Positions 16,076 through 64,000 of a stretch of 64,000 nt of DNA are shown here, piece by piece. The first letter of the stretch is position 1. Each line of letters begins with the position of its first letter. Below the pieces are notes generated by a model that saw only the letters and a list, made by a program, of their open reading frames with translations, made no database searches and had not been told where the DNA came from. Origin of the DNA: Candidatus Jettenia sp. (lineage in GTDB: Bacteria; Planctomycetota; Brocadiia; Brocadiales; Brocadiaceae). A program made the translations under genes and the position numbers. The stretch spans positions 649,659 through 713,658 of the forward strand of contig CP091278.1 in NCBI GenBank assembly GCA_021650895.1, in the 5' to 3' direction.

Positions 16076-16519
16076 TTCTGCAATCTCCACTTTTAAAATA
16101 GACCGTTCGGCGATTTTTTTATAACACCGGCGTAGGGGCAGGTTTTAAACCTGCCCCTACAACAGAACATTGGAATTACCTAAACGTTTAAACTAGTACA
16201 CTGTCAACTTAATTTATTATAATAGACTCTCTCGTATGTGTCATTGCGAGGGGCATTTTCCCGAAGCAATCTCTTTTGAGATATCCAGGGGGATTGCTTC
16301 GGACAATACCCTCGCAATGACACAGCCCCATGCAGTTGAACCGATACAAATCGTATTATCATGAATTATATTGACAGTGTACTAGGCCTTTGGCACCTTG
16401 TGTTTTTTATTAAACCGTAGGGCAAGGCTTTAGCCTTGCCTCTCCGCCTGAATATGCGCACGGCAATAGCAACCCTAAAGGGTTGCCCTACAGAATTGAA
16501 ATTCGTATATATCAGGTGA
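16076..16519. other. Repeat-filled gap in the copper/redox cluster
   Basis: Holds a perfect palindrome GTAGGGGCAGG-TTTTAAA-CCTGCCCCTAC-type hairpin (16132-16160), the 16193-16385 MITE-like element, and a compound TTTA-centre palindrome pair (16417-16495). No coding sequence is supported. The genes on either side run the same way, so these look like insertions into an operon. Confidence 0.7.
16193..16385. mobile_element. MITE-like element, perfect 15-bp TIR CTAGTACACTGTCAA
   Basis: The right end TTGACAGTGTACTAG is the exact inverse of the left end. The centre is the same GTCATTGCGAGG...CCTCGCAATGAC hairpin as in the 1326-1532 copy. 193 bp, noncoding. Confidence 0.82.
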
Positions 16520-39953: not shown

Positions 39954-40385
39954 ATTTCAGTATTTTGAGCGATTATAAATATGGAATTCCCTATACATTA
40001 CATGAAGCCTTTAACACCTTTTTTATAACATCAATGTAAGAGCGAACCTTATGTTCGCCCAAATGAGAAATAAACACAAACGTTTTGGATCGTAAAAGAC
40101 AAGCACAAGTAGGGGCAGGTTTTAAACCTGCCCCTACAACAAAACATTGAAATTCCTAAATATCAAGTTATTGTTTAGTCAAAGGTGGCACGGACAAACT
40201 TTGTTTGTCCGTGCTTGTTTCCCTACGCACGTGGGTAGGGAATATAATACACTGACAAACAGAGTTTGTCAGTGCCACCCTGAAAACCGCTTATATAAAA
40301 TGAAAATTTCTATACAATCAAGTTACCTGATATGGTATTTTCTATGGGTAAATTTTCATTACCGAGAAAGATTAAGTAATAATCT
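39954..40385. other. Intergenic region with dispersed palindromes
   Basis: Contains AGCGAACCTTATGTTCGCC (~40031), GTAGGGGCAGGTTTTAAACCTGCC (~40110-40138) and the GACAAAC/GTTTGTC palindrome in two versions (~40190-40280). No gene. Confidence 0.65.
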
Positions 40386-49223: not shown

Positions 49224-50165
49224 TTAAAAGATAACGCTGTCAGATGTAATATCAGCAATCATGGCGTTAATAGCCCCGTTGATTGGCATAATCTGATAAC
49301 CAGCTTCAGATAATCTGGTTTTTATCTCTTCGTCATTAGAAAAAATACCGCTACGGAGCCCAACAATCGTATGGTCAATAAAGGATGAATCCTGAAACAC
49401 CTCGAGGATGGTGTCGATATCAATAACCTCATTTTTATCCAAACTCAGGGACTCTAAAAGAACAGGAATTTTTCTCGATTGACGGGTATAGACTATGAAC
49501 TTAGGCGATAAATCTGTCATAAATCTCGATTGCTTACCGCCTCCCCAGAGAGTCTTAAAAGATTCTAAAAGCGCTATAACCCTTTTTTTCCGCTCCTGAA
49601 GAGGTAGTTCTATGGGATCGGGCTTTGCGTTTTTTTCTTTTTTCTCAAGCTCGTACCCTTTAAATCTTCCTACTCTATCCAGTTCTACCAAAATATCCGA
49701 TTTGAAAAAGTTATAATAGATTTCAGTCTCGAATAAATTACCACCAGCCTCCATTGTCTGTCCGTCTATACCCTCTTTGGATTTGGTTCCTAAATCACGG
49801 TCTCCTTTAAACGGAGAAAGTGCGATTGCCGCAGAAACTCTTACCGGAGCAGTCCTTCGGCGATTTTCTTTTTTTGATGCAATCATATAGCCGAAGAGGT
49901 CATCATCAATAAAATGAGGATCTCCTGCTGTAATATCAACACCTTTGTTATTCTCCGATGAAAAAACAGGAGATAATGAAAAACCTTGCTCTCTCAGTTT
50001 TGTCCGAATAGCATATTTTTGGCTCTGACCAGAAATATAGGGAATGGTCTTGCCGTCAAGGCAGGTAATCTTCTTAATGGTAGCTACATTGCCCTCAGTA
50101 AAACTGCCATTGACACTTCCTAAGGATGTTTTAAAGATATAACTGATATTCAGGCAGTTACTCAT
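49224..50165 (-). CDS. cas7: Type I-B Cas7 (Cst2/DevR family)
   Basis: 313 residues. SYIFKTSLGSVNGSFTEGNVA near 7 (broken by a few residues here), CLDGKTIPYISGQSQKYAIR near 30 (the GQSxKxxIR backbone-subunit motif), RTAPVRVSAAIALSPF near 105 and MTDLSPKFIV near 225 match Cas7/Cst2. It forms the crRNA-coating backbone of Cascade. GGAGG lies nine bases before the ATG at 50165, which overlaps the cas8 stop by eight bases. Full length. Confidence 0.87.
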   Translation of the reverse strand: MSNCLNISYIFKTSLGSVNGSFTEGNVATIKKITCLDGKTIPYISGQSQKYAIRTKLREQGFSLSPVFSSENNKGVDITAGDPHFIDDDLFGYMIASKKENRRRTAPVRVSAAIALSPFKGDRDLGTKSKEGIDGQTMEAGGNLFETEIYYNFFKSDILVELDRVGRFKGYELEKKEKNAKPDPIELPLQERKKRVIALLESFKTLWGGGKQSRFMTDLSPKFIVYTRQSRKIPVLLESLSLDKNEVIDIDTILEVFQDSSFIDHTIVGLRSGIFSNDEEIKTRLSEAGYQIMPINGAINAMIADITSDSVIF

Positions 50166-51753
50166 TCTCTGCATCCTCCTTCTTCGGATTGTAAAAAAAC
50201 TGATTTGCGGCAAAAATAGAAATGAGAGACTTATAATCTTCCCAGTTTTCCTCTCGTAGAGAATCAAAGAGGTTCCTGTTATAGCTTATTTCTAATGGGA
50301 ATTGGATCTGCGACAGAATTTTGATAAATTCGCTCTGACACCTGCAGTTCCGGATAGCATACAAAAACCCTTTCGTATCCTTTGCTTTCGATTTTCTTCC
50401 GATCTCTCCCCCTATCGCAGCGCACAGGGTAATCATACTTTCTTCCATTCCCGCCACCTCCTTGTTGTAAAGCCTGATAAAGTAAAATAGATTCTTGTTC
50501 GTCCTTTCAGATCGAAATAAATACTCTTCCAGGAGATCATTTGTTTTGGTGAAATTAAGGATACGCTCACAAATACGATTTCTCAAAACTGAATTCTCAT
50601 CGGTCTTGCTATACAACGCATTAAGAAATGCCTTCCATTCTATAGCCTCCTTTTCACCTCTGCCTATCAAAGATAGATTTCTGGACTTTTCGAAAAAGAT
50701 AAAAAGTTCCGCAATCCTGCTAAACTCTACCATGTGTTCAACGATAACAGTATTTCCCTGCTTTAAAGCCAGAATGCCTATTATTTTCTTTGCAGTAGTA
50801 CGATTGAACCATTTCTGTTTACCATCACACCTGAGCTTCTCAAAAAGAGAAAGCAAAAAAACAAAGAGGGTCTCATAGAGATACGTTGTAATAACCGATT
50901 GTTTATCAAAATTACCATAAGGATTACCGGTAAGAGCGCCCGCCTCTGATTGTAAACGATACATTTCAGAAAGATCAGGGTCGTATAGTATAAAACAGCT
51001 CAGATATGCATTATGAATCGAAAAGTAGCTCTTATAAGAGCCTGCTAGTGCGGCAAGACTGCATTTTCCACACAGACGGAACTCACTATCCAAATTTGAG
51101 TAAAAGGTTTTAAGATTCGGGAACCCTACCAGTAAAGGAAAATGCATTCTATCAAGGGAAATCAGTTTTTTGAAACGATCACCACAAAAAGAACAGGGCT
51201 TCCTTCCCGGTCTCAACATGTCACTGTTCACTATCGTTTTATTACTTAAAGCAAAGATCATTTTCGATGTAGGAATTTCATTTTCAATCGAGAGTTTGTA
51301 TGTCTTGTTTTTAACCAGGAAATTTTCAAGTTCTTTGTGAACTGATACAGAAAGCCCTTTCAAAGGTATCTTTCCATCCGGTTTAGGTACAAAACCCTGG
51401 AAATAATACTTTTTATCGATTCGGAGATCTCTTTTTCTTGATAAAACAAACCGATTGCTCGCCTGATCATAGTAGAAGCCGTAATTGTTTGTCTCATAAA
51501 CAAACGCTTCAATTAAAAGCCTTTTGAGTTCAGCAAAAAAAGAATCGGTGCATTTCTGATTAACACCAACGATTAATGTATCCGCCTCTAATGGAGATAG
51601 CTGCATGCCGAAGAGTTGTTCGAAATGAGCTTGATGGGATATGAGTATGCTGTAAAGACCAACAATTCCATTATCAATCCAGAAATTACCCGTTTTCTTA
51701 AAAACTATCCTGGTAAAATTGTTGTTTGTTTGCTGCGCTTGTAACTGTGTCAT
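50158..51753 (-). CDS. cas8b: Type I-B Cas8 (Cst1-like, CXXC-CXXC)
   Basis: 531 residues. The zinc-finger pair CSFC near 187 and CGKC near 233 is the mark of the Cst1/CXXC_CXXC subgroup of Cas8 (Tneap-type I-B). The rest is alpha-helical and weakly conserved. It is the large subunit for PAM recognition. A start at ATG 51753 is chosen because CGGAG precedes it; an ATG at 51777 and a GTG at 51801 are in frame. It overlaps cas7 by 8 bases. It looks intact. Confidence 0.83.
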   Translation of the reverse strand: MTQLQAQQTNNNFTRIVFKKTGNFWIDNGIVGLYSILISHQAHFEQLFGMQLSPLEADTLIVGVNQKCTDSFFAELKRLLIEAFVYETNNYGFYYDQASNRFVLSRKRDLRIDKKYYFQGFVPKPDGKIPLKGLSVSVHKELENFLVKNKTYKLSIENEIPTSKMIFALSNKTIVNSDMLRPGRKPCSFCGDRFKKLISLDRMHFPLLVGFPNLKTFYSNLDSEFRLCGKCSLAALAGSYKSYFSIHNAYLSCFILYDPDLSEMYRLQSEAGALTGNPYGNFDKQSVITTYLYETLFVFLLSLFEKLRCDGKQKWFNRTTAKKIIGILALKQGNTVIVEHMVEFSRIAELFIFFEKSRNLSLIGRGEKEAIEWKAFLNALYSKTDENSVLRNRICERILNFTKTNDLLEEYLFRSERTNKNLFYFIRLYNKEVAGMEESMITLCAAIGGEIGRKSKAKDTKGFLYAIRNCRCQSEFIKILSQIQFPLEISYNRNLFDSLREENWEDYKSLISIFAANQFFYNPKKEDAENE

Positions 51754-51847
51754 ATAGTCTCCGATTGCATACAACATTCTTACGTTATATTCCCAGTACA
51801 CAACTCAATTAAGTATTTTAATACAATTCCTCCATAACAAGAACCAT

Positions 51848-52690
51848 TTAAACTATCTTATATTCTTCTACATATCCACATCCCATGCTATTGTTTTGTC
51901 CGAAGCCACATTCAAGACCAATTTTAATTAATTCTTTCGGACCGGTTACGGTAAAAGGCTGTAATGTTCCTTTTATACGAATGTACTTTCTATTGCCATC
52001 CAATCCTTCCTTAAAGACGGTAAACTGTTTCATGGATTTCCCTTTGACAGGATGGAAATGAAACTTTAATGATTCGCCCGAAAAAGATTTATCGTAGAGG
52101 ATTTCATATTTATGGGTAAGGTTTCGATTAAGGAATACTTCGTATTCTTCATCTCCCGGAAATAGATACATGTCTCTCTGTCCAGGAGGCATAGGTTTCT
52201 TAATAAAAATAGGAGATTCTAAAGGGTGTAAGCTTATGCTGTTTAATGGGTCTGGAAGAATCTCAATTCTGGAGATAGAGACCATTTGATATCCCAGGGC
52301 AATTTCATTTCCTTCCCGGAATATCCCATCAATCAAGTGCTGAAGAAATTTATTGACTGGAGAAGCGATTTGAAAAGAAAATGTAAAAGGAACGTTCTGA
52401 GAGCCATTGAACAAAAAGCCATTCAAGCTATGTAAGTCATTCAAATCGGCTGGGTAACGGAAACCATTAGAACGCATGGCCTTGATTGGTTTGTGAAATG
52501 TTATACCTGAAAACACAAAGAGCTTGAACCGCTTATCCCTTTTGTAAATGTAACCTTGTTCATGAAGCCATTGGGAATAATCAGGGTCTGATCTGGATAA
52601 AAATCCATAGATTAGAGCTTGTATCTGATGCTGATAGTTAAAATCAATGAGCCCTGATTTTTCTGATGAGAGGGTTATCTTTATCCTCAT
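51848..52690 (-). CDS. cas6: CRISPR repeat endoribonuclease Cas6
   Basis: 280 residues. MRIKITLSSEKSG at the start and IQALIYGFLSRSDPDYSQWLH near 23 (broken here by a few residues) match the Cas6 first ferredoxin-like domain; the C-terminal glycine-rich loop GLECGFGQNNSMGCGYVEEY is diagnostic. Catalytic His: HxxG-type position unclear, with His in WLHEQG a candidate. It cuts pre-crRNA in the repeat. It begins the cas operon; a promoter (TTGACA-N16-TATTTT) lies so close that the mRNA would be nearly leaderless. Confidence 0.88.
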   Translation of the reverse strand: MRIKITLSSEKSGLIDFNYQHQIQALIYGFLSRSDPDYSQWLHEQGYIYKRDKRFKLFVFSGITFHKPIKAMRSNGFRYPADLNDLHSLNGFLFNGSQNVPFTFSFQIASPVNKFLQHLIDGIFREGNEIALGYQMVSISRIEILPDPLNSISLHPLESPIFIKKPMPPGQRDMYLFPGDEEYEVFLNRNLTHKYEILYDKSFSGESLKFHFHPVKGKSMKQFTVFKEGLDGNRKYIRIKGTLQPFTVTGPKELIKIGLECGFGQNNSMGCGYVEEYKIV

Positions 52691-52704
52691 TTTTTTTAAA
52701 CAAC

Positions 52705-52732
52705 AAAATAACAAATTAGTATACGATGTCAA
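52705..52732 (-). promoter_or_regulatory. Possible promoter of the cas operon
   Basis: On the minus strand TTGACA, 16 bases, TATTTT, ending about 15 bases before the cas6 ATG. It predicts an almost leaderless message. Confidence 0.4.
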
Positions 52733-56230: not shown

Positions 56231-56259
56231 TTGACATAGCAATATAACATGTGTTATAT
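56231..56259 (+). promoter_or_regulatory. Strong sigma70 promoter of the helicase-methylase operon
   Basis: TTGACA (56231-56236), exactly 17 bases, TTATAT (56254-56259). The start codon lies 46 bases after the -10. Confidence 0.72.
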
Positions 56260-56263
56260 TGCT
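56238..56263. promoter_or_regulatory. 26-bp palindromic operator overlapping the promoter
   Basis: AGCAATATAACA and TGTTATATTGCT are perfect 12-bp arms around TG. They cover the spacer and the -10 box, an ideal position for repression. The encoded protein begins with a Cro/C1-type HTH, so self-repression is a reasonable inference. Confidence 0.7.
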
Positions 56264-56304
56264 GTCGCTCACACCACACGACAACATAAAAAAGGAGAAA
56301 AGGA

Positions 56305-59300
56305 GTGCGGGAACAATATACCGTTGGGGCTTGTCCTAAGGAAGATTATCCTGAACGCATTAAACGTCTCCGCGCTAATCTTGGGCTTACACAGCAAACC
56401 CTGGCTGAGCACCTCGGTGTCTCATTCGCAACAGTTAATCGATGGGAAAACGGCCAGGCAAAACCTTCACAACTCTCATGGAATCAACTCCGTCAACTCG
56501 AAAAAAGCATTTCTCAAGAATCTAACCCTTATGATAGGCAGGTAACCCGGAGCAAAGAGATTCCTTTGGACTTTACTGGTAATCCGGAAACTGTCAAAAT
56601 CCTTGCAGAGGGAAAGCGTCTTTCTTTCGGGCACCTGGTAAATCCAACCTTTGCGACCGAAATATCCTGTATCCACCCCCTGCCACACCAGAGGATTGCA
56701 GTCTATGATCACATGCTTAAACAATCACGATTACGATTTCTTTTAGCAGATGATGCGGGAGCCGGCAAAACGATCATGACCGGTCTTTATATTCGTGAAA
56801 TGTTGTCTCGTCGTCTTTTGCGCCGGATACTCATCATAACTCCCGCAGGTCTTGTGGGAAACTGGAGGCGTGAATTAATGACTCTCTTCAGCCTTCATTT
56901 CCGGATTATTAGCGGAAGCGATGCCAGAAACGAGAACCCCTTTATTGGTGAAGATAGTAACAGAATCATTGTAAGCATGGATACTTTGTCAAGTCAAAGG
57001 ATGTTTACTCGACTAAAAGAATCTGGTGTTATCCCTTACGATCTTGCAGTCTTTGATGAGGCCCATAAATTGTCAGCAGACCGTGGAACTGATTTGCGTG
57101 TACGAAAAACCGATCGTTACCGTCTTGCTGAATCGCTTGCAGGAATACCCGGTCTTCCTGCATGCCGTAACGGTGATGTAAGCAAGGATGAACGATGGAG
57201 TTTAACCTGGAGTGTTCAACATCTTCTCTTGCTTACCGCAACACCTCACATGGGAAAGGACTACCCCTACTATGCATTATGGCGGCTTCTGGAACCGGAT
57301 GGACTATCAACACCTGAAGCATTTAATGAATTTAATATTGAGCAGCGTCGCATGCATTTTATCAGACGTACTAAAGAGGAAATGATTTTTCTCGATGGGC
57401 GTCCCCTTTACCCGAAACGCGTATCTAACACCCTTGCCTATGAACTGAGCCAGGGAGAAGTAAGTGAGCAGACCCTCTATAATGAGACCACAGACTATCT
57501 GCGTTTCGTTTATAACAAGGCAAAGCTTCTTAACAGGGAAGCGGCTCGATTGGCTATGAGTGTCTTTCAGAGACGTCTTACAAGCTCAACCTATGCCCTC
57601 CTCCGTTCTTTTGAAAGAAGAATCGAAAAACTGGACACACTTATCAAAGATGTCCAGGATGGTAAAATAAGCGCCGAACATCTGGTAACAATGCAACGCC
57701 GCATTACCGATGATGACGATATCCTTGACTCGAAAGCTGCCGATGATGAAAACCCTGAAGAAGGCTATGAAGAGAATGAATTAGCAGAGGAAAAGATTCT
57801 GCAGGGCGTAATTGCAGCATCTCTAACTGATCTGCTTGCAGAAAAGGAACAGGTCAATCAGTTGCTTATCCTGGCAAAAAAGGTTTATGGCACCGGAATG
57901 GAATCCAAATTTGAAAGATTACGGGAAATTCTCACTGATCCGAAGTTCAAAGGAGAAAAATTTATTATTTTCACAGAGCATCGTGATACTTTGGAATTTC
58001 TCGTTAAACGCCTTACCGGTTTAGGATACACCGATCAGGTAGCACAGATTCATGGGGGTATGCATTACACCTTACGGGAGGAAGAGGTTGAGAGATTTAA
58101 GAAACCACTCGATATCGAAGGAGCACGTTTTCTCATATGTACCGATGCAGCAGGAGAAGGCATCAATCTTCAGTTCTGTTGGATAATGATTAATTATGAT
58201 GTCCCCTGGAATCCTGCCCGACTTGAACAGCGTATGGGTCGAATTCACCGTTATGGTCAAAAACATGACCCTGTTATTATCCTTAATCTGGTTGACCCTT
58301 CCACCCGTGAAGGTAGGGTACTCAAAACCCTTCTCGATAAGCTGGAAAGGATTCGCAAAGAGCTTCAGTCAGACAAGGTCTTTGATTGCATAGGCCGCGT
58401 CTTTTCGGGAATTTCTATAAAACAATATATGGAGCTTGCTGTTACTGAGGATGCAGACACAGTAGCCAGAGAATTAGATGGGCGCCTTACCAAAGAACAA
58501 ATTGAAGCCCTTGCTGCTCGTGAAAAGACCCTCTATGGTACAGGCGGTGATGTAGCTAAGGAACTGCCCCGCCTTCGTACCAGTCTGGAAAAGGAAATTT
58601 ATTTTCGATTGTTGCCAGGCTATGTCAGGCAATATATCGGGAAAGCTGCAACGCTGGTTAATATCGAAATAGATGGTGATATGAGTAAGGAATTTTCATT
58701 GCTTCCTACGAAACTTGATGCCCTTGATCCCCTGCTTCCCGCCCTGGAAATGTATCCTGAGGATGCCCGGAATCGTATGACGGTTCTTCAGCCTCCTGAT
58801 CGTGACTCTTGTATCTGGCTCCATCCAGGCGAACCGGTCTTCGAGCGATTTCGTCAGCTTGTAACTGAACGTCTTAGCCTCGAGAGCAGGCGTGGTGCTG
58901 TGTTTATGGACCCATCAACAGACAAGCCTTATCTTTTCCATCTGGCGCTTCTTTCTATTGTTCGGAATGCAGATCCAGAGATTGAAGAATTTGCCAGAGA
59001 AGAAGTTTTGGAATACCGCCTGGTGGGAGTGAAACAATATGAAGGCGCAGAGATATCGCTCTGTCCGATTGAACATCTCTTACTCCTGAAAGGAGGCCGT
59101 GGACTCCCAGCATCTGCTCAAGGACTTGCCATAATCGCAAATACCGAAAAGAACCATGCCCATGCCTTCTTGATTGAACGGGTAGCACGAAAAATGGCTT
59201 TAGAATACAAAAAAAAGCTTTTAGAGAGTATCACTGATCGGGAGAATTTTATCGTACGGGGGTTCGACTTCAATGAAGCGGAACTAGCGGCAGCCAGATC

Positions 59301-59907
59301 CAGGCAGTCTGAAAAGGCACGTTCCGGAAACCGCAAGGTGCTTGAAACCCTTGATGAAATAAAGCAGCAGCAGAAACATATTGCCCAACGCCGTGCTAAG
59401 GCTTTGGCGGTTATAAGACGTGAGCCTGATCTTATTTCGCCCGGTTCGATTACGTTTCTTGCACATGCCATTGTAGTACCATCATCTGATTCTATGGATA
59501 GAGAGCAACATAATGCCAATGTTGAAATGGTTGCAATGAAGCACGTATGGGCATTTGAAGAGGCAGCAGGGGCAAAGGTCATTGATGTGCATACCCCTGA
59601 CTTAGCCCGTGTTGCTGGTCTACCTGACAATCCTGGGTTTGATCTTTTGTCTATTCGTCCCGGTGGTGAAAAACGTCATATTGAAATAAAAGGGCGTGCC
59701 GGCACTGGTGATATTGAGATATCTGCGAACGAATGGGCAAAGGCATGCAATATACGCCAAAGTTACTGGCTCTATGCAGTCTATGATTGCGCCACACCGG
59801 CCCCGAGACTTGCCCGTGTGCAGGACCCTTTTGGCAGTTTGCTGGTAAAGGCAAAAGGTAGTTTTCTTATAAGTTCTAAGCAGGTTATTGAGACATCGGA
59901 GGTATAA
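56305..59907 (+). CDS. HTH-SNF2 helicase-DUF3883 fusion protein (predicted defence)
   Basis: 1,200 residues. Domain order: a Cro/C1-type HTH at ~18-68 (RLRANLGLTQQTLAEHLGVS); a SNF2/HepA-type ATPase core with DDAGAGKT near 150 (Walker A), FDEAHKLS near 250 (DEAH box), LLLTATPHMG near 311, GEKFIIFTEHRDTLEFL near 551 and RLEQRMGRIHRYGQKHD near 640 (motif VI); then a long linker; and a C-terminal DUF3883-type domain (NPGFDLLSIRP, HIEIKGRAG, EWAKACN) near 1110-1180 that resembles a restriction-endonuclease-like fold. Start is GTG with GGAG seven bases before it. Methylase gene downstream. No DISARM or BREX core gene is present. Confidence 0.85.
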   Translation: MREQYTVGACPKEDYPERIKRLRANLGLTQQTLAEHLGVSFATVNRWENGQAKPSQLSWNQLRQLEKSISQESNPYDRQVTRSKEIPLDFTGNPETVKILAEGKRLSFGHLVNPTFATEISCIHPLPHQRIAVYDHMLKQSRLRFLLADDAGAGKTIMTGLYIREMLSRRLLRRILIITPAGLVGNWRRELMTLFSLHFRIISGSDARNENPFIGEDSNRIIVSMDTLSSQRMFTRLKESGVIPYDLAVFDEAHKLSADRGTDLRVRKTDRYRLAESLAGIPGLPACRNGDVSKDERWSLTWSVQHLLLLTATPHMGKDYPYYALWRLLEPDGLSTPEAFNEFNIEQRRMHFIRRTKEEMIFLDGRPLYPKRVSNTLAYELSQGEVSEQTLYNETTDYLRFVYNKAKLLNREAARLAMSVFQRRLTSSTYALLRSFERRIEKLDTLIKDVQDGKISAEHLVTMQRRITDDDDILDSKAADDENPEEGYEENELAEEKILQGVIAASLTDLLAEKEQVNQLLILAKKVYGTGMESKFERLREILTDPKFKGEKFIIFTEHRDTLEFLVKRLTGLGYTDQVAQIHGGMHYTLREEEVERFKKPLDIEGARFLICTDAAGEGINLQFCWIMINYDVPWNPARLEQRMGRIHRYGQKHDPVIILNLVDPSTREGRVLKTLLDKLERIRKELQSDKVFDCIGRVFSGISIKQYMELAVTEDADTVARELDGRLTKEQIEALAAREKTLYGTGGDVAKELPRLRTSLEKEIYFRLLPGYVRQYIGKAATLVNIEIDGDMSKEFSLLPTKLDALDPLLPALEMYPEDARNRMTVLQPPDRDSCIWLHPGEPVFERFRQLVTERLSLESRRGAVFMDPSTDKPYLFHLALLSIVRNADPEIEEFAREEVLEYRLVGVKQYEGAEISLCPIEHLLLLKGGRGLPASAQGLAIIANTEKNHAHAFLIERVARKMALEYKKKLLESITDRENFIVRGFDFNEAELAAARSRQSEKARSGNRKVLETLDEIKQQQKHIAQRRAKALAVIRREPDLISPGSITFLAHAIVVPSSDSMDREQHNANVEMVAMKHVWAFEEAAGAKVIDVHTPDLARVAGLPDNPGFDLLSIRPGGEKRHIEIKGRAGTGDIEISANEWAKACNIRQSYWLYAVYDCATPAPRLARVQDPFGSLLVKAKGSFLISSKQVIETSEV

Positions 59908-59993
59908 TGATGAAACTTGAGGATTTGAAACGAGCTTTGAAGACTGAATGCACAGGGCCTTCACATAAACCTCAACAAACTGTGAGGCGATAA
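59907..59993 (+). CDS. 28-residue coupled ORF between helicase and methylase
   Basis: MMKLEDLKRALKTECTGPSH then KPQQTVRR. Its ATG uses the last A of the helicase stop (TAATGATG), with GGAGG at 59898-59902 in ideal position. Its stop in turn overlaps the methylase start (TAATGA). Both junctions are typical of translational coupling. It is not similar to anything I recognise. It may be a real small protein, or what is left after an in-frame deletion of a larger gene (for example a DUF499 ATPase that often accompanies DUF1156 methylases). Confidence 0.5.
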   Translation: MMKLEDLKRALKTECTGPSHKPQQTVRR

Positions 59994-62900
59994 TGAACGA
60001 TACACCACGATTGATTGAACGTGCTTTTCCTTTGAAACAGGCATCTTTGGATTCGGTTCATGAAAAGAACGTGAGGCATGGCCACATATCGACACTTCAT
60101 ATATGGCCGGCAAGGCGTCCACTTGCCGCATGCAGGGCGGCGCTTATTGCTACATTGCTTCCTGATCCAGGTACACCAGAAAAACGCAAAGAACTGTGTG
60201 AAAAAATTGGTGGAAAGATCGACAAAAAGATTGAAAAGAAGAAAATGCCAAACGGGCAGATTATTGAACGTATGAAGGAAGTAACGAAAGGTGGTATTCT
60301 GCACTGGGGTCGGGAGACTGAAGAAAAAGAACTCCTCGAATGGTTCAGACAGGAAATCAGAAATACTTACGGTGGGCGTACACCAAAAGTGCTTGATCCA
60401 TTTGCCGGAGGAGGTGCAATCCCGCTTGAAGCAATGCGGTTAGGATGCGAGGTAACGGCGATTGATATCAATCCGGTCGCATGGTTCATTTTAAAATGTA
60501 CACTGGAATATCCTCAGAAACTTGCAGGCAAGGTACATCCCTTACCCGATTTCATTCTTGAGAATGAAGAATTCATGGAGGCTTTCTATAAAGCACACCC
60601 CCATCTTGTTGGACGTACAAAGCCTACAAAAAAACAACTTAAAGATCAACAAGGAAAACTATGGAAGACACACCGGGATGATAATGAACGTATTCCCAAG
60701 GCAGACCTTTCATGGCATGTAAGGGCATGGGGTTATTGGGTTTTAGATAAAGCAAGGCGGGAACTGGCAATGTTTTATCCTACCTATGCTGAATTTGAGC
60801 CTATTGATAAGTTGAACGCCAAACCATATGAGAAACAGCCGACCCAACTTGTGCCAATAAAAGAAGATGGTACACCTGATATTAATGCGCTTAACAAAGA
60901 ATTCAGCGAGGAGTATCTTGATAGTAAACGTAATCCTCGCTGGATAGCCAAGCCTACCGTCGCATACCTGTGGGCGCGAACGTTGACTTGTAAAAATTGC
61001 CGTGCTACAATTCCGCTTCTCAAGACACGCTGGCTTTGTAAGAAGGACAAAAAACGCGTACTACTTACGATGGAGCCTAATGCAGACAAAAGCGGTGTTG
61101 TTTTCGGAATAAATCCAAATGTTCCCATCAAAGGTGGTAATACAGCCCAAAGACGTGAGCATGATAAAAGGATTGGTGCTGGTACAATGTCACGTTCCGG
61201 CGCAAAGTGCCCATGCTGCGATGCAATTATGACAATGGAGGATATACGATTGGAAGGCAAGGCTGGAAGGCTTGGAGCAATAATGACAGCGGTTGTGGTT
61301 GACGGCCAGAATGGGAAGGAATATCGGCTGCCGACAGAGTATGAAACTCAAAGAGCCGAAGAGGCTGAGAAAGAATTGCCTCGTTTGTTCTCACAAATCC
61401 CATTTGGATTGCCAGAAGAACCTCTTCCGAGCAAAGAGGCATTAGGATTTCGCATTCCACTTTACGGTTTCAATCAGTGGAAAAAGTTGTTTACCTTCAG
61501 GCAACTCTTTTCATTAGGAATGTTTGTTAAACACACAAGGGAATCAAATACTATGTTGAAGGATATGGATTATTCAGATGAATGGAGAGAAGCAATAGAG
61601 GGATATTTAGCTTTGGCGCTCGATAGACTAGCTTCTATGTCGACCCACCTTTGTCGTTGGGAATCAGGGAGCGAATTCGTTGTCCAGACTTTTGTTCGTT
61701 TTGCATTACCCATTTTGTGGGATTTTACGGAAACTGCAGTTCTCTCGGATACCACGGGAAATTATTATGGAGGTATTGATTGGATTGCTCGCTTTATTGA
61801 TCATGCGAACTTTGCAGTTCAAAATGCTGTGCCTCCAAAAATCAAAGCACAATCTGCTACTGTCTTTAACAATGAGGGTGGTTTTGATTTTGTTTTAACT
61901 GACCCTCCATATTATGATGCTATACCATATTCAGACCTAATGGATTTCTTCTATGTGTGGTTACGACGATCACTCTATGGTTTTTCCTCGGAAATAGGTA
62001 CTGTGTTTAGTGAAACATTATCACCTAAATGGAATCATAAAAATAATGACGGAGAATTAATTGATGATACAAGTCGCCATGGAGGTGATAAAGTGAAGTC
62101 GAAAACTACTTATGAAGAAGGAATGTTCCGTGCTTTTCGTTTTTGCAATGATGCATTGAGCACTGGCGGTCGTTTGGTTGTTGTTTTTGCCCACAAAAAA
62201 CCAGATGCTTGGGAGACGTTAGCTTCAGCAATTATTCGTGCAGGATTTATTGTAGATGGTAGCTGGCCAATTCAAACCGAACGTATAGCTCGTTCTCGGG
62301 CTCATGGATCCGCAGCCCTCTCTTCCTCCGTTTGGCTTGTTTGCAAAAAGCGTCCAATTACAACCCGTTCTGGATGGGATAATCAGGTACTCGAAGAGAT
62401 GCGACAGAACATAAAGGAACGCCTCCGTGAATACTGGGATGCTGGTATCCGTGGACCGGATTTTGTATGGGCTGCAACTGGCCCGGCACTTGAGGCCTAC
62501 AGCAAACACCCCATAGTAAAGAAGGCCAATGAACCTGGAATATTGACGGTAAATGAATTCCTTAATCACGTCCGCCGGATTGTTGTGGATTTTGTTGTAG
62601 GCCGTGTCCTTTCTCATGGAAAAGAAGGAGATGCAGAATTGGCCACCGCTGACCGTTTGGATGAACCGACAGCGTATTACTTACTTCATCGTAATGATTT
62701 CGGACTGGAAGAGGCGCCAGCGGGGGCATGTATCCTCTATGCAATTTCATGCGGTATTTCTGACAAAGAGCTCGCCGATACATGGAATCTCATTTCCTTC
62801 ACAAAAGGGAAATCCACGGATGACAGTGATGAAGAGGAGATAGATGTGGATGCTGAGGCTGACGAAATTGAGAAGGATTCCGGTAGCAAGGTGAAGCTCA

Positions 62901-63208
62901 AGACCTGGGCACAGAGGAAGAGTCGTTCTCTCGGGTATGAAACATCTGGGGGAAAACCCATTCCACTCATTGATCGTGTCCACCGCCTTATGCATCTCTG
63001 GAAAGAGGGAGATTTGCATAAGGTTGATGCGTATCTTGATGATAATGGATTGAGGCGCCATGAGTTGTTTAAACGGCTTCTTCAGTCACTTATTGAACTT
63101 TCTCCGCATGGAAGTGAAGAACGCTCGCTTCTGGAGAGCATAAGCAATCATATTCAGGCCAAAGGTGCTGTGGCACAGAAGAGATTGCCTTTACCAGGCG
63201 AAGAATAA
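59993..63208 (+). CDS. DUF1156 adenine-specific DNA methylase with zinc ribbon
   Basis: 1,071 residues, COG1743-type. N-terminal DUF1156: RAFPLKQASLDSVHEKNVRHGH near 10 (broken by a few residues), HIWPARRPLAACRAAL near 36. SAM motif: LDPFAGGGAIPLEAMRLGC near 133. A zinc ribbon CKNC near 333 / CPCC near 405. Catalytic motif LTDPPYYDAIPYSDLMDFFY near 633 (DPPY), implying N6-adenine methylation. An acidic stretch (DDSDEEEIDVDAEADE) near 945. Likely protects self DNA or marks foreign DNA in the helicase-linked system. GAGG precedes the ATG, which overlaps the mini-ORF stop. Confidence 0.88.
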   Translation: MNDTPRLIERAFPLKQASLDSVHEKNVRHGHISTLHIWPARRPLAACRAALIATLLPDPGTPEKRKELCEKIGGKIDKKIEKKKMPNGQIIERMKEVTKGGILHWGRETEEKELLEWFRQEIRNTYGGRTPKVLDPFAGGGAIPLEAMRLGCEVTAIDINPVAWFILKCTLEYPQKLAGKVHPLPDFILENEEFMEAFYKAHPHLVGRTKPTKKQLKDQQGKLWKTHRDDNERIPKADLSWHVRAWGYWVLDKARRELAMFYPTYAEFEPIDKLNAKPYEKQPTQLVPIKEDGTPDINALNKEFSEEYLDSKRNPRWIAKPTVAYLWARTLTCKNCRATIPLLKTRWLCKKDKKRVLLTMEPNADKSGVVFGINPNVPIKGGNTAQRREHDKRIGAGTMSRSGAKCPCCDAIMTMEDIRLEGKAGRLGAIMTAVVVDGQNGKEYRLPTEYETQRAEEAEKELPRLFSQIPFGLPEEPLPSKEALGFRIPLYGFNQWKKLFTFRQLFSLGMFVKHTRESNTMLKDMDYSDEWREAIEGYLALALDRLASMSTHLCRWESGSEFVVQTFVRFALPILWDFTETAVLSDTTGNYYGGIDWIARFIDHANFAVQNAVPPKIKAQSATVFNNEGGFDFVLTDPPYYDAIPYSDLMDFFYVWLRRSLYGFSSEIGTVFSETLSPKWNHKNNDGELIDDTSRHGGDKVKSKTTYEEGMFRAFRFCNDALSTGGRLVVVFAHKKPDAWETLASAIIRAGFIVDGSWPIQTERIARSRAHGSAALSSSVWLVCKKRPITTRSGWDNQVLEEMRQNIKERLREYWDAGIRGPDFVWAATGPALEAYSKHPIVKKANEPGILTVNEFLNHVRRIVVDFVVGRVLSHGKEGDAELATADRLDEPTAYYLLHRNDFGLEEAPAGACILYAISCGISDKELADTWNLISFTKGKSTDDSDEEEIDVDAEADEIEKDSGSKVKLKTWAQRKSRSLGYETSGGKPIPLIDRVHRLMHLWKEGDLHKVDAYLDDNGLRRHELFKRLLQSLIELSPHGSEERSLLESISNHIQAKGAVAQKRLPLPGEE

Positions 63209-63729
63209 ACCAAATTGTCCAATATTTGTCTGAAAGTCCACATCATCCTTGAAATAAGGACATTATATTGATAAATTGTCCTTGGTTAAAGGACAAATAT
63301 TCAATGTTAAGGAATTTCAATATTTGTTGTAGGGGCAGATTTTAAACCTGCCCCTACGTGGTCACAAATAAAGCTGCCGCAAGGCCTAACTTAATGCATA
63401 GGAATTTCAAACTAACTCTATAGTGGCAAGGCGCGCCTTGCCACTGTTATAAAAGTTACGTAGGGCGACCCTTTAGGGTTGCTCTCCCCGTATGCACGTT
63501 CATACGGGGAAGCAAGGCTAAAGCCTTGCCCTACGTTTTGATTAAAAACAAAAGTAGCCGAAGGCCTATTTTAACGTTTAGGAATTTCAAAGTTTTTCAT
63601 TATGCCCTTAACACACCCCTAACCCCTCTCAAGAGGGGAATTTAAGAAGTCCCCTCTTGGGAGGGGATTTAGGGGTGGGTAAAAAGCGTTGGGTTCTTGT
63701 CTATTAAAATCCAATCTAACTTAATCTTT
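63209..63729. other. Intergenic region with TTGTCC repeats and dispersed palindromes
   Basis: 63212-63300 carries TTGTCC/GGACAA units in direct and inverted order, including TTGTCCTT-GGTTA-AAGGACAA. Then GTAGGGGCAG...CTGCCCCTAC (63330-63357), TGGCAAGGCGCGCCTTGCCA (~63422), TTTA-centre palindromes (to 63533) and the ACCCC inverted repeat (63611-63680). No gene. Confidence 0.6.
63611..63680. repeat. Diverged ACCCACCCCTAACCCC inverted repeat
   Basis: Same family as 9451-9517; arms ACACCCCTAACCCCTCTCAA and TTGGGAGGGGATTTAGGGGT are imperfect. Confidence 0.7.
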
Positions 63730-64000
63730 ATGGTAAACATACAGACCCTTAAAGAAATAATTGTCTCCAATGAAGATTTCATTAACAAGGAAATTGGCAA
63801 ACCTGTTCCCAGAGAGGGACTGGCATTTCCTGAATCTTCAAATAAGGTTATTGTTTTCTATGGCGTGAGGAGGAGCGGCAAGACCTTTATTCTCTACGAT
63901 CTTTTCCGGAGATATGAGGGAAGGGCGTTGTACATTGATTTCGAAGACGACCGGCTCTCGCAATTTGAGACTAAGGATTTTGAACGATTGAAGCAGGCGT
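63730..64000 (+). CDS. AAA_14/DUF4143-type ATPase (3' end outside window)
   Basis: 90 codons visible. VIVFYGVRRSGKTFILYDLF near 43 holds a Walker A motif with the R-R-S-G-K-T form of the AAA_14 family, followed by ALYIDFEDDRL near 72, typical of the strand-2 acidic segment. The start ATG has no good ribosome-binding site; a later start is possible. These stand-alone ATPases are common, mobile and of unknown function in bacteria and archaea. Not clearly linked to the methylase operon because of the 521-bp repeat-filled gap. Confidence 0.75.
   Translation, partial: MVNIQTLKEIIVSNEDFINKEIGKPVPREGLAFPESSNKVIVFYGVRRSGKTFILYDLFRRYEGRALYIDFEDDRLSQFETKDFERLKQA

Follow-up and report, generated by a model that had tools for sequence, protein, structure and literature searches.

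A conserved, probable composite operator upstream of the HTH-bearing hmaA gene of Candidatus Jettenia sp. and its predicted autoregulation

The hma operon and its promoter palindrome

The window, i.e., the entire 64,000-nucleotide stretch of DNA analyzed here, contains a plus-strand gene cluster which, as judged from its genes, is an Hma operon, an anti-phage system type represented in PADLOC (PMC8565338) and filed as the DUF499-centred BREX-Related Type-1 (BR Type-1) in the consulted part of PMC12839542. The gene order is hmaA, a DUF1156 methyltransferase gene (hmaB), an AAA_14/DUF4143 ATPase gene and a DUF499 ATPase gene (hmaC), the last of which is located outside the window. The hmaA gene (56305-59907, plus strand) encodes a protein of 1200 residues which, based on Pfam, PADLOC and AlphaFold, combines an N-terminal Cro/C1-type helix-turn-helix (HTH) with an SNF2-family helicase and a C-terminal NOV_C (PD-(D/E)XK-like) domain. 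The PADLOC HmaA profile matches residues 84-1159 (E 4.8e-153), while Pfam returns HTH_3 for residues 19-56 (E 9e-11), confirming the Cro/C1 HTH that the initial annotation had placed at the start of the downstream helicase, followed by SNF2, Helicase_C and NOV_C (residues 1074-1164, E 4.4e-15). The coding part of the HTH extends from 56353 to 56478 on the plus strand (residues 17-58), with AlphaFold helices at residues 15-26, 30-37, 41-48 and 56-71. The predicted nuclease residues D1113, E1127 and K1129 are invariant in 41 sequences, and the C-terminal PD-(D/E)XK nuclease that characterizes the Hma helicase is thus predicted for the window HmaA also. The best matches of a PDB fold search with the AlphaFold model (mean pLDDT 71.5) included RapA along with further helicases of the SNF2 or related types, and gave no pointer to a second DNA reader.

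HmaB (59993-63208, plus strand) is a predicted DUF1156 N6-adenine methyltransferase (Pfam DUF1156, 6.7e-18; PADLOC HmaB, 2.7e-117) with a hypervariable specificity region at approximately residues 495-632. The domain-matched AAA_14/DUF4143 ATPase gene starts at 63697 on the same strand and continues past the end of the window at 64000 (L008:7756-9132), while hmaC is found at about L008:9092-11650 (PADLOC HmaC, 2.7e-70; Pfam DUF499, 6.9e-19). The ‘restriction-like’ system that had been proposed for this locus is supported by PADLOC matches to all of HmaA, HmaB and HmaC. The inserted ATPase matches PADLOC PDC-S01, and similar proteins are encoded near hmaA in loci L010-L013 and L049. A cas6 gene (51848-52732, minus strand) lies near the operon, with an enolase gene and an aldehyde-dehydrogenase-family gene in between, and its minus-strand neighbours at 49224-51801 are uncharacterised.

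The GTG start codon of hmaA at 56305 is preceded by a likely ribosome-binding site, AGGAG (56293-56297, plus strand), and is positioned 42 nt past a palindrome, AGCAATATAACA-TG-TGTTATATTGCT, at 56238-56263 (no strand assigned). Together with the -35 element TTGACA (56231-56236, plus strand), this region (56231-56263) reads TTGACA-TAGCAATATAACATGTG-TTATAT-TGCT. Both arms of the palindrome are perfect over 12 bp, although its 2-bp centre TG is not self-complementary, so that the description ‘perfect 26-bp palindrome’ was a slight overstatement. The promoter had been read as TTGACA-N17-TTATAT, of which the -35 element stands, while the -10 element was one base out of register: the best sigma-70 fit combines TTGACA with an 18-bp spacer and TATATT (56255-56260), extended by TG at 56252-56253, and matches the consensus at 11 of 12 positions. 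The palindrome indeed covers both the spacer and the -10, the latter being an extended element, TG-T-TATATT (56252-56260, plus strand), made by the right arm.

Inverted repeats with arms of at least 12 bp and a gap of at most 8 were absent from 15 first-order shuffles of the window, and the exact 26-mer, with up to three mismatches allowed, occurs once in the 3.82-Mb genome. The window holds a few other perfect inverted repeats, mostly G+C-rich dispersed hairpins; these include REP-like families, i.e., GTAGGGGCAGGTTTTAAACCTGCCCCTAC (16132-16160 and 40109-40137), CACGGACAAAC..GTTTGTCCGTG (25305, 35009, 40188 and 40250) and AGTGGCAAGGC..GCCTTGCCACT (47103 and 63422).

Conservation of the probable operator upstream of HTH-bearing hmaA genes

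The decisive evidence that the palindrome is real comes from its conservation. A single scan of genome contigs yielded 64 loci whose HmaA relatives range from 100% to about 42% identity and which, according to their record titles, derive from Planctomycetota, Deltaproteobacteria, Acidobacteria, Latescibacterota, Magnetococcales, Verrucomicrobia, Bacteroidetes, Chloroflexi, Armatimonadetes, Elusimicrobia, Kiritimatiellae and others. With an iterated palindromic weight matrix, 57 of the 58 HTH-bearing genes in this first set were seen to be preceded by a site; sites scoring above 10 bits were present in 57 loci, as compared to one among 604,463 control positions located in these loci but away from the upstream regions. 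Following the addition of two phylum-wide searches and the removal of duplicates, the final set comprised 64 HTH-bearing loci, 62 of which possess the operator, as opposed to one of 47 HTH-less loci. The operator inference is thereby based on about 60 relatives in more than 12 bacterial phyla.

The element shared by these 62 loci is an 18-bp core, ATATAACATGTGTTATAT, at 56242-56259 of the window. Its occurrence upstream of homologues, which had been suggested as a check, was thus observed, while the opposite case, i.e., an HTH retained with the palindrome missing, is limited to two loci (L054 and L076) in which no recognisable site was found. Within the HTH clade as defined by helicase sequence, the L050 protein starts past the HTH region, and here both HTH and operator are absent. 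The association between HTH and operator across the family is strong (Fisher 1e-27), although it corresponds to a single clade and this value therefore overstates the number of independent events, so that tests within the clade carry more weight. Judged from sequence and from the consulted part of PMC12839542, the HTH-less HmaA proteins appear to begin with a TUDOR-like stretch at the place of the HTH. The only HTH-less hmaA gene with a palindrome of this type is that of L077, whose upstream region (L108) contains CTATTGCATTTGCAATAG and lacks motif B (described below).

In the homologues the right arm, TGNTATA, is near-invariant, which is partly explained by its double role as the extended -10 of the promoter; conservation of the left arm is almost as strong. 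TTGAC precedes the 18-bp core by 9 or 10 nt in 31 of the 56 aligned promoters, and the site keeps a fixed register relative to the -35 and -10 elements.

Operator covariation and motif B

The half-site consensus is TATAACA, with TATATCA, TATAGCA, TATCGCA and TATGGCA as variants. Symmetric changes on the two arms exceed those in shuffles at half-site position 4 (p 0.014) and at position 5 (p 0.004). In the recognition helix, S40, F41, N45, R46, W47, E48 and N49 are nearly invariant, while residue 42 (Ala in the window, codon 56428-56430, plus strand) may be A, P, V or T. When aligned without gaps to a PDB chain (query residues 17-55, chain residues 4-42), residue 42 falls on residue 29 of the 434 repressor, where Gln29 is the classical base-contacting glutamine.

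The operator base at half-site position 5 varies together with residue 42. With the HTH columns left out of the tree, residue 42 changed from A to P or V approximately nine times, and a change of position 5 to T on at least one arm accompanied P/V in, on average, 6.6 of eight independent pairs, with the reverse seen in none (median p 0.016). By mutual information, residue 42 ranked first and residue 51 second among 1020 variable HmaA columns, although this measure alone is inflated by clades, as was also seen in the motif B scans. In a tree-aware scan, residue 42 ranked second of 572 columns by purity and tenth of 724 by net pairs, the columns ranked above it being mostly hypervariable with fitted residue groups.

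The promoter alignment revealed a second half of the operator which the initial annotation had missed. This element, designated motif B, is the 8-bp sequence ATCGNGTG, with seven fixed positions, sharp borders and near-random flanks. In the window it is represented by GTCGTGTG on the minus strand (CACACGAC on the plus strand) at 56275-56282, matching the consensus ATCGCGTG at six of eight positions and located 24 nt downstream of the dyad. Across 48 of the 62 sites motif B lies 24 +/- 2 bp from the dyad (22-26, mostly exactly 24), and the operator is therefore composite. It is positioned upstream of the -35 in 36 of these sites and downstream, as the reverse complement, in 12, having changed side at least six times on the tree. 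Since its orientation and distance toward the dyad are the same on both flanks, the two placements are equivalent by the symmetry of the palindrome, which argues for one palindrome-anchored complex and against an upstream activator. The flank opposite motif B displayed no clear residual motif in the alignment.

A reader of motif B was sought by mutual information with HmaA columns, yet the results follow clades and indicate no domain. HmaB is an unlikely reader, since its specificity region is hypervariable while motif B persists, which leaves HmaC or some other part of HmaA as candidates.

Elsewhere in the genome of origin, further matches to TATNNCANNTGNNATA stay within approximately two- to threefold of a reversed-pattern control. 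The exact composite pattern, which the weaker motif B of the window does not match, occurs at three places in 392 Planctomycetota genomes, two of which are hmaA promoters. Candidate additional operators, i.e., the strongest one in the same genome (C1:1314606), one in genome G392 and one in G395, all lack motif B and were rejected. A role of the operator as a phage decoy was likewise rejected: of the twelve IMG/VR contigs that carry the composite pattern, two carry it at an hmaA promoter, while the remainder show no HmaA and match mostly in or beside unrelated coding genes.

Predicted autoregulation and comparison with known systems

The conservation of the palindrome, its linkage to the HTH and the covariation between recognition helix and operator support the self-repression that had been suggested in the initial annotation. 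It is thus very probable that the hma operon has its operator in the palindrome and its repressor in the N-terminal HTH of HmaA, through which HmaA would set its own level as well as that of HmaB and HmaC. Two HmaA protomers are envisaged to place their HTHs on the half-sites TATAACA and TGTTATA, thereby covering the spacer and the extended -10. Protein bound at this position would exclude RNA polymerase and hence repress, such that the helicase-nuclease subunit would limit its own expression together with that of HmaB and HmaC, i.e., negative autoregulation. Motif B, at its fixed distance of 24 bp from the dyad on either side, may be in contact with some other region of this bound complex, which would result in an asymmetric composite operator. 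Dilution of HmaA, or its recruitment elsewhere, as when it is engaged on invading DNA, would lift the repression, and this would represent the response of the operon to infection. A more elaborate version, to which we assign somewhat less than even chances, would have HmaA act as both effector and repressor, with a dimer reading the palindrome through its HTHs and a second module, belonging to HmaA or to the HmaA-HmaC complex, reading the ATCGNGTG of one flank only, so that the assembled defence complex silences its promoter until it is engaged elsewhere.

Several other explanations were considered. The HTH might, on the palindrome, activate or both activate and repress, in the manner of the controller (C) proteins of Type II systems, which dimerize, belong to the Xre type and have both activating and repressing sites (PMC12707154), and the frequent location of motif B upstream of the -35 would suit such a function. 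However, the sole HTH site overlaps the spacer and the -10, a position which argues against activation, no second palindrome accompanies it, and the downstream placement of motif B in 12 loci is unlike that of an upstream activator site; activation is consequently considered improbable. It is rather less probable that motif B is the methylation or recognition site of HmaB and that the operator senses methylation. The ATCGNGTG element is a sharply bounded, asymmetric 8-mer resembling BREX and restriction-modification targets, and HmaB is co-encoded, yet the HmaB specificity regions display a median pairwise identity of 34%, as compared to 63% for the C-terminal part. The window and L011 possess related motifs B and HmaA proteins of 94% identity, whereas their HmaB specificity regions are 36% identical, and 13 pairs share the exact ATCGCGTG despite specificity regions below 35% identity. 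For this reason motif B as an HmaB target is disfavoured.

An unrelated host regulator could also bind the palindrome, or the latter could simply be a conserved promoter, with the HTH serving another role such as helicase targeting. The double use of the right arm as extended -10 is consistent with this explanation, which is nevertheless slightly less credible still: the left arm almost equals the right in conservation, the site is missing upstream of 46 of the 47 HTH-less hmaA genes, the arm bases covary with the specificity residue of the HTH, and hardly any further copies of the exact composite pattern occur in the genomes tested. Finally, the perfect inverted repeat might function as RNA or DNA secondary structure, i.e., as an attenuator or cruciform, for which we see hardly any likelihood. 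Its arms are A+T-rich with a 2-nt loop, they often differ at position 5 (symmetric in 31 of 62 sites), which fits a protein half-site better than a stem, and the palindrome is mostly untranscribed because it lies inside the promoter.

Relative to typical Hma/BR Type-1 systems, the window operon is alike in combining a helicase, a DUF1156 N6-methyltransferase and a DUF499 ATPase in one operon, and in the C-terminal PD-(D/E)XK domain of the helicase. It differs in that its helicase bears a Cro/C1-type HTH where typical relatives have an N-terminal TUDOR domain, and in its dedicated composite operator. In the consulted part of PMC12839542, the TUDOR domain is described as shared helicase architecture with no stated requirement, and neither an HTH in its place nor a dedicated operator was found mentioned; the HTH at the TUDOR position makes this system a variant of Hma/BR Type-1.

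HTH regions fused to restriction-modification enzymes are known from M.SsoII and M.Ecl18kI (PMC3978073, PMC6100179, PMC12707154). The N-terminal HTH region of M.SsoII represses its own gene at a palindrome, and its catalytic domains have been proposed to sit on flanking DNA (PMC3978073). HmaA resembles these proteins in its HTH fused to a system enzyme and, as conservation and covariation indicate, in a palindrome in its own promoter that matches this HTH, with repression being predicted. The fusion partner is, however, the Snf2 helicase of a BREX-like system as opposed to a Type II methyltransferase, and a specific flanking 8-mer is conserved, whereas the flank contacts of the M.SsoII type are described as non-specific. 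Thus, HmaA appears to work alike and has in M.SsoII what may be regarded as its closest functional precedent, although by its sequence it is not assigned to the M.SsoII family, its partner being an SNF2 helicase and not a C5-methyltransferase. Controller proteins of Type II systems are similarly Xre-family dimers on operators of their own operons, but are mostly stand-alone, small and activate before repressing, whereas HmaA has one palindrome over the -10; C-REase fusions are cited in the consulted part of PMC12707154. BrxR (PMC9122589, PMC9122601) and RptR (PMC12255303) are dedicated regulators of phage-defence operons, yet they are separate small proteins and not effector-fused, BrxR carrying a WYL domain and RptR acting on TAGCTA repeats. 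The consulted parts of the literature searched describe neither an HmaA fused to an HTH nor its operator. Motif B is a new element.

How costly multi-gene defence systems are curbed until needed is largely an open question, and in most of the known cases a small, separate regulator does this. In the present system the regulatory role appears to fall to the effector helicase itself, and the operator is conserved from anammox bacteria to Desulfobacterota, Magnetococcales, Verrucomicrobia and others. Testable predictions follow from the covarying pair of residue and base and from the side-switching motif B, and the latter furthermore offers a route to establishing which component of a BREX-related complex recognises DNA sequence.

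Two observations concern HmaB. The HmaB proteins of the window and L011 differ by what resembles a specificity-domain swap, the region of approximately residues 495-632 being 36% identical and the adjoining parts 84-92%. In addition, the HmaB methyltransferase genes of six loci from three phyla (L018:11581-12637, L040:11628-13838, L041:7723-9810, L046:10823-13531, L047:10845-13544 and L063:4198-6900) contain a Y1_Tnp (IS200/REP-type HUH transposase) insert of approximately 300 residues, each time at about the same place, near residue 361 of the window HmaB; in five of the six the insert shares one reading frame with HmaB, and translated short repeats adjoin it.
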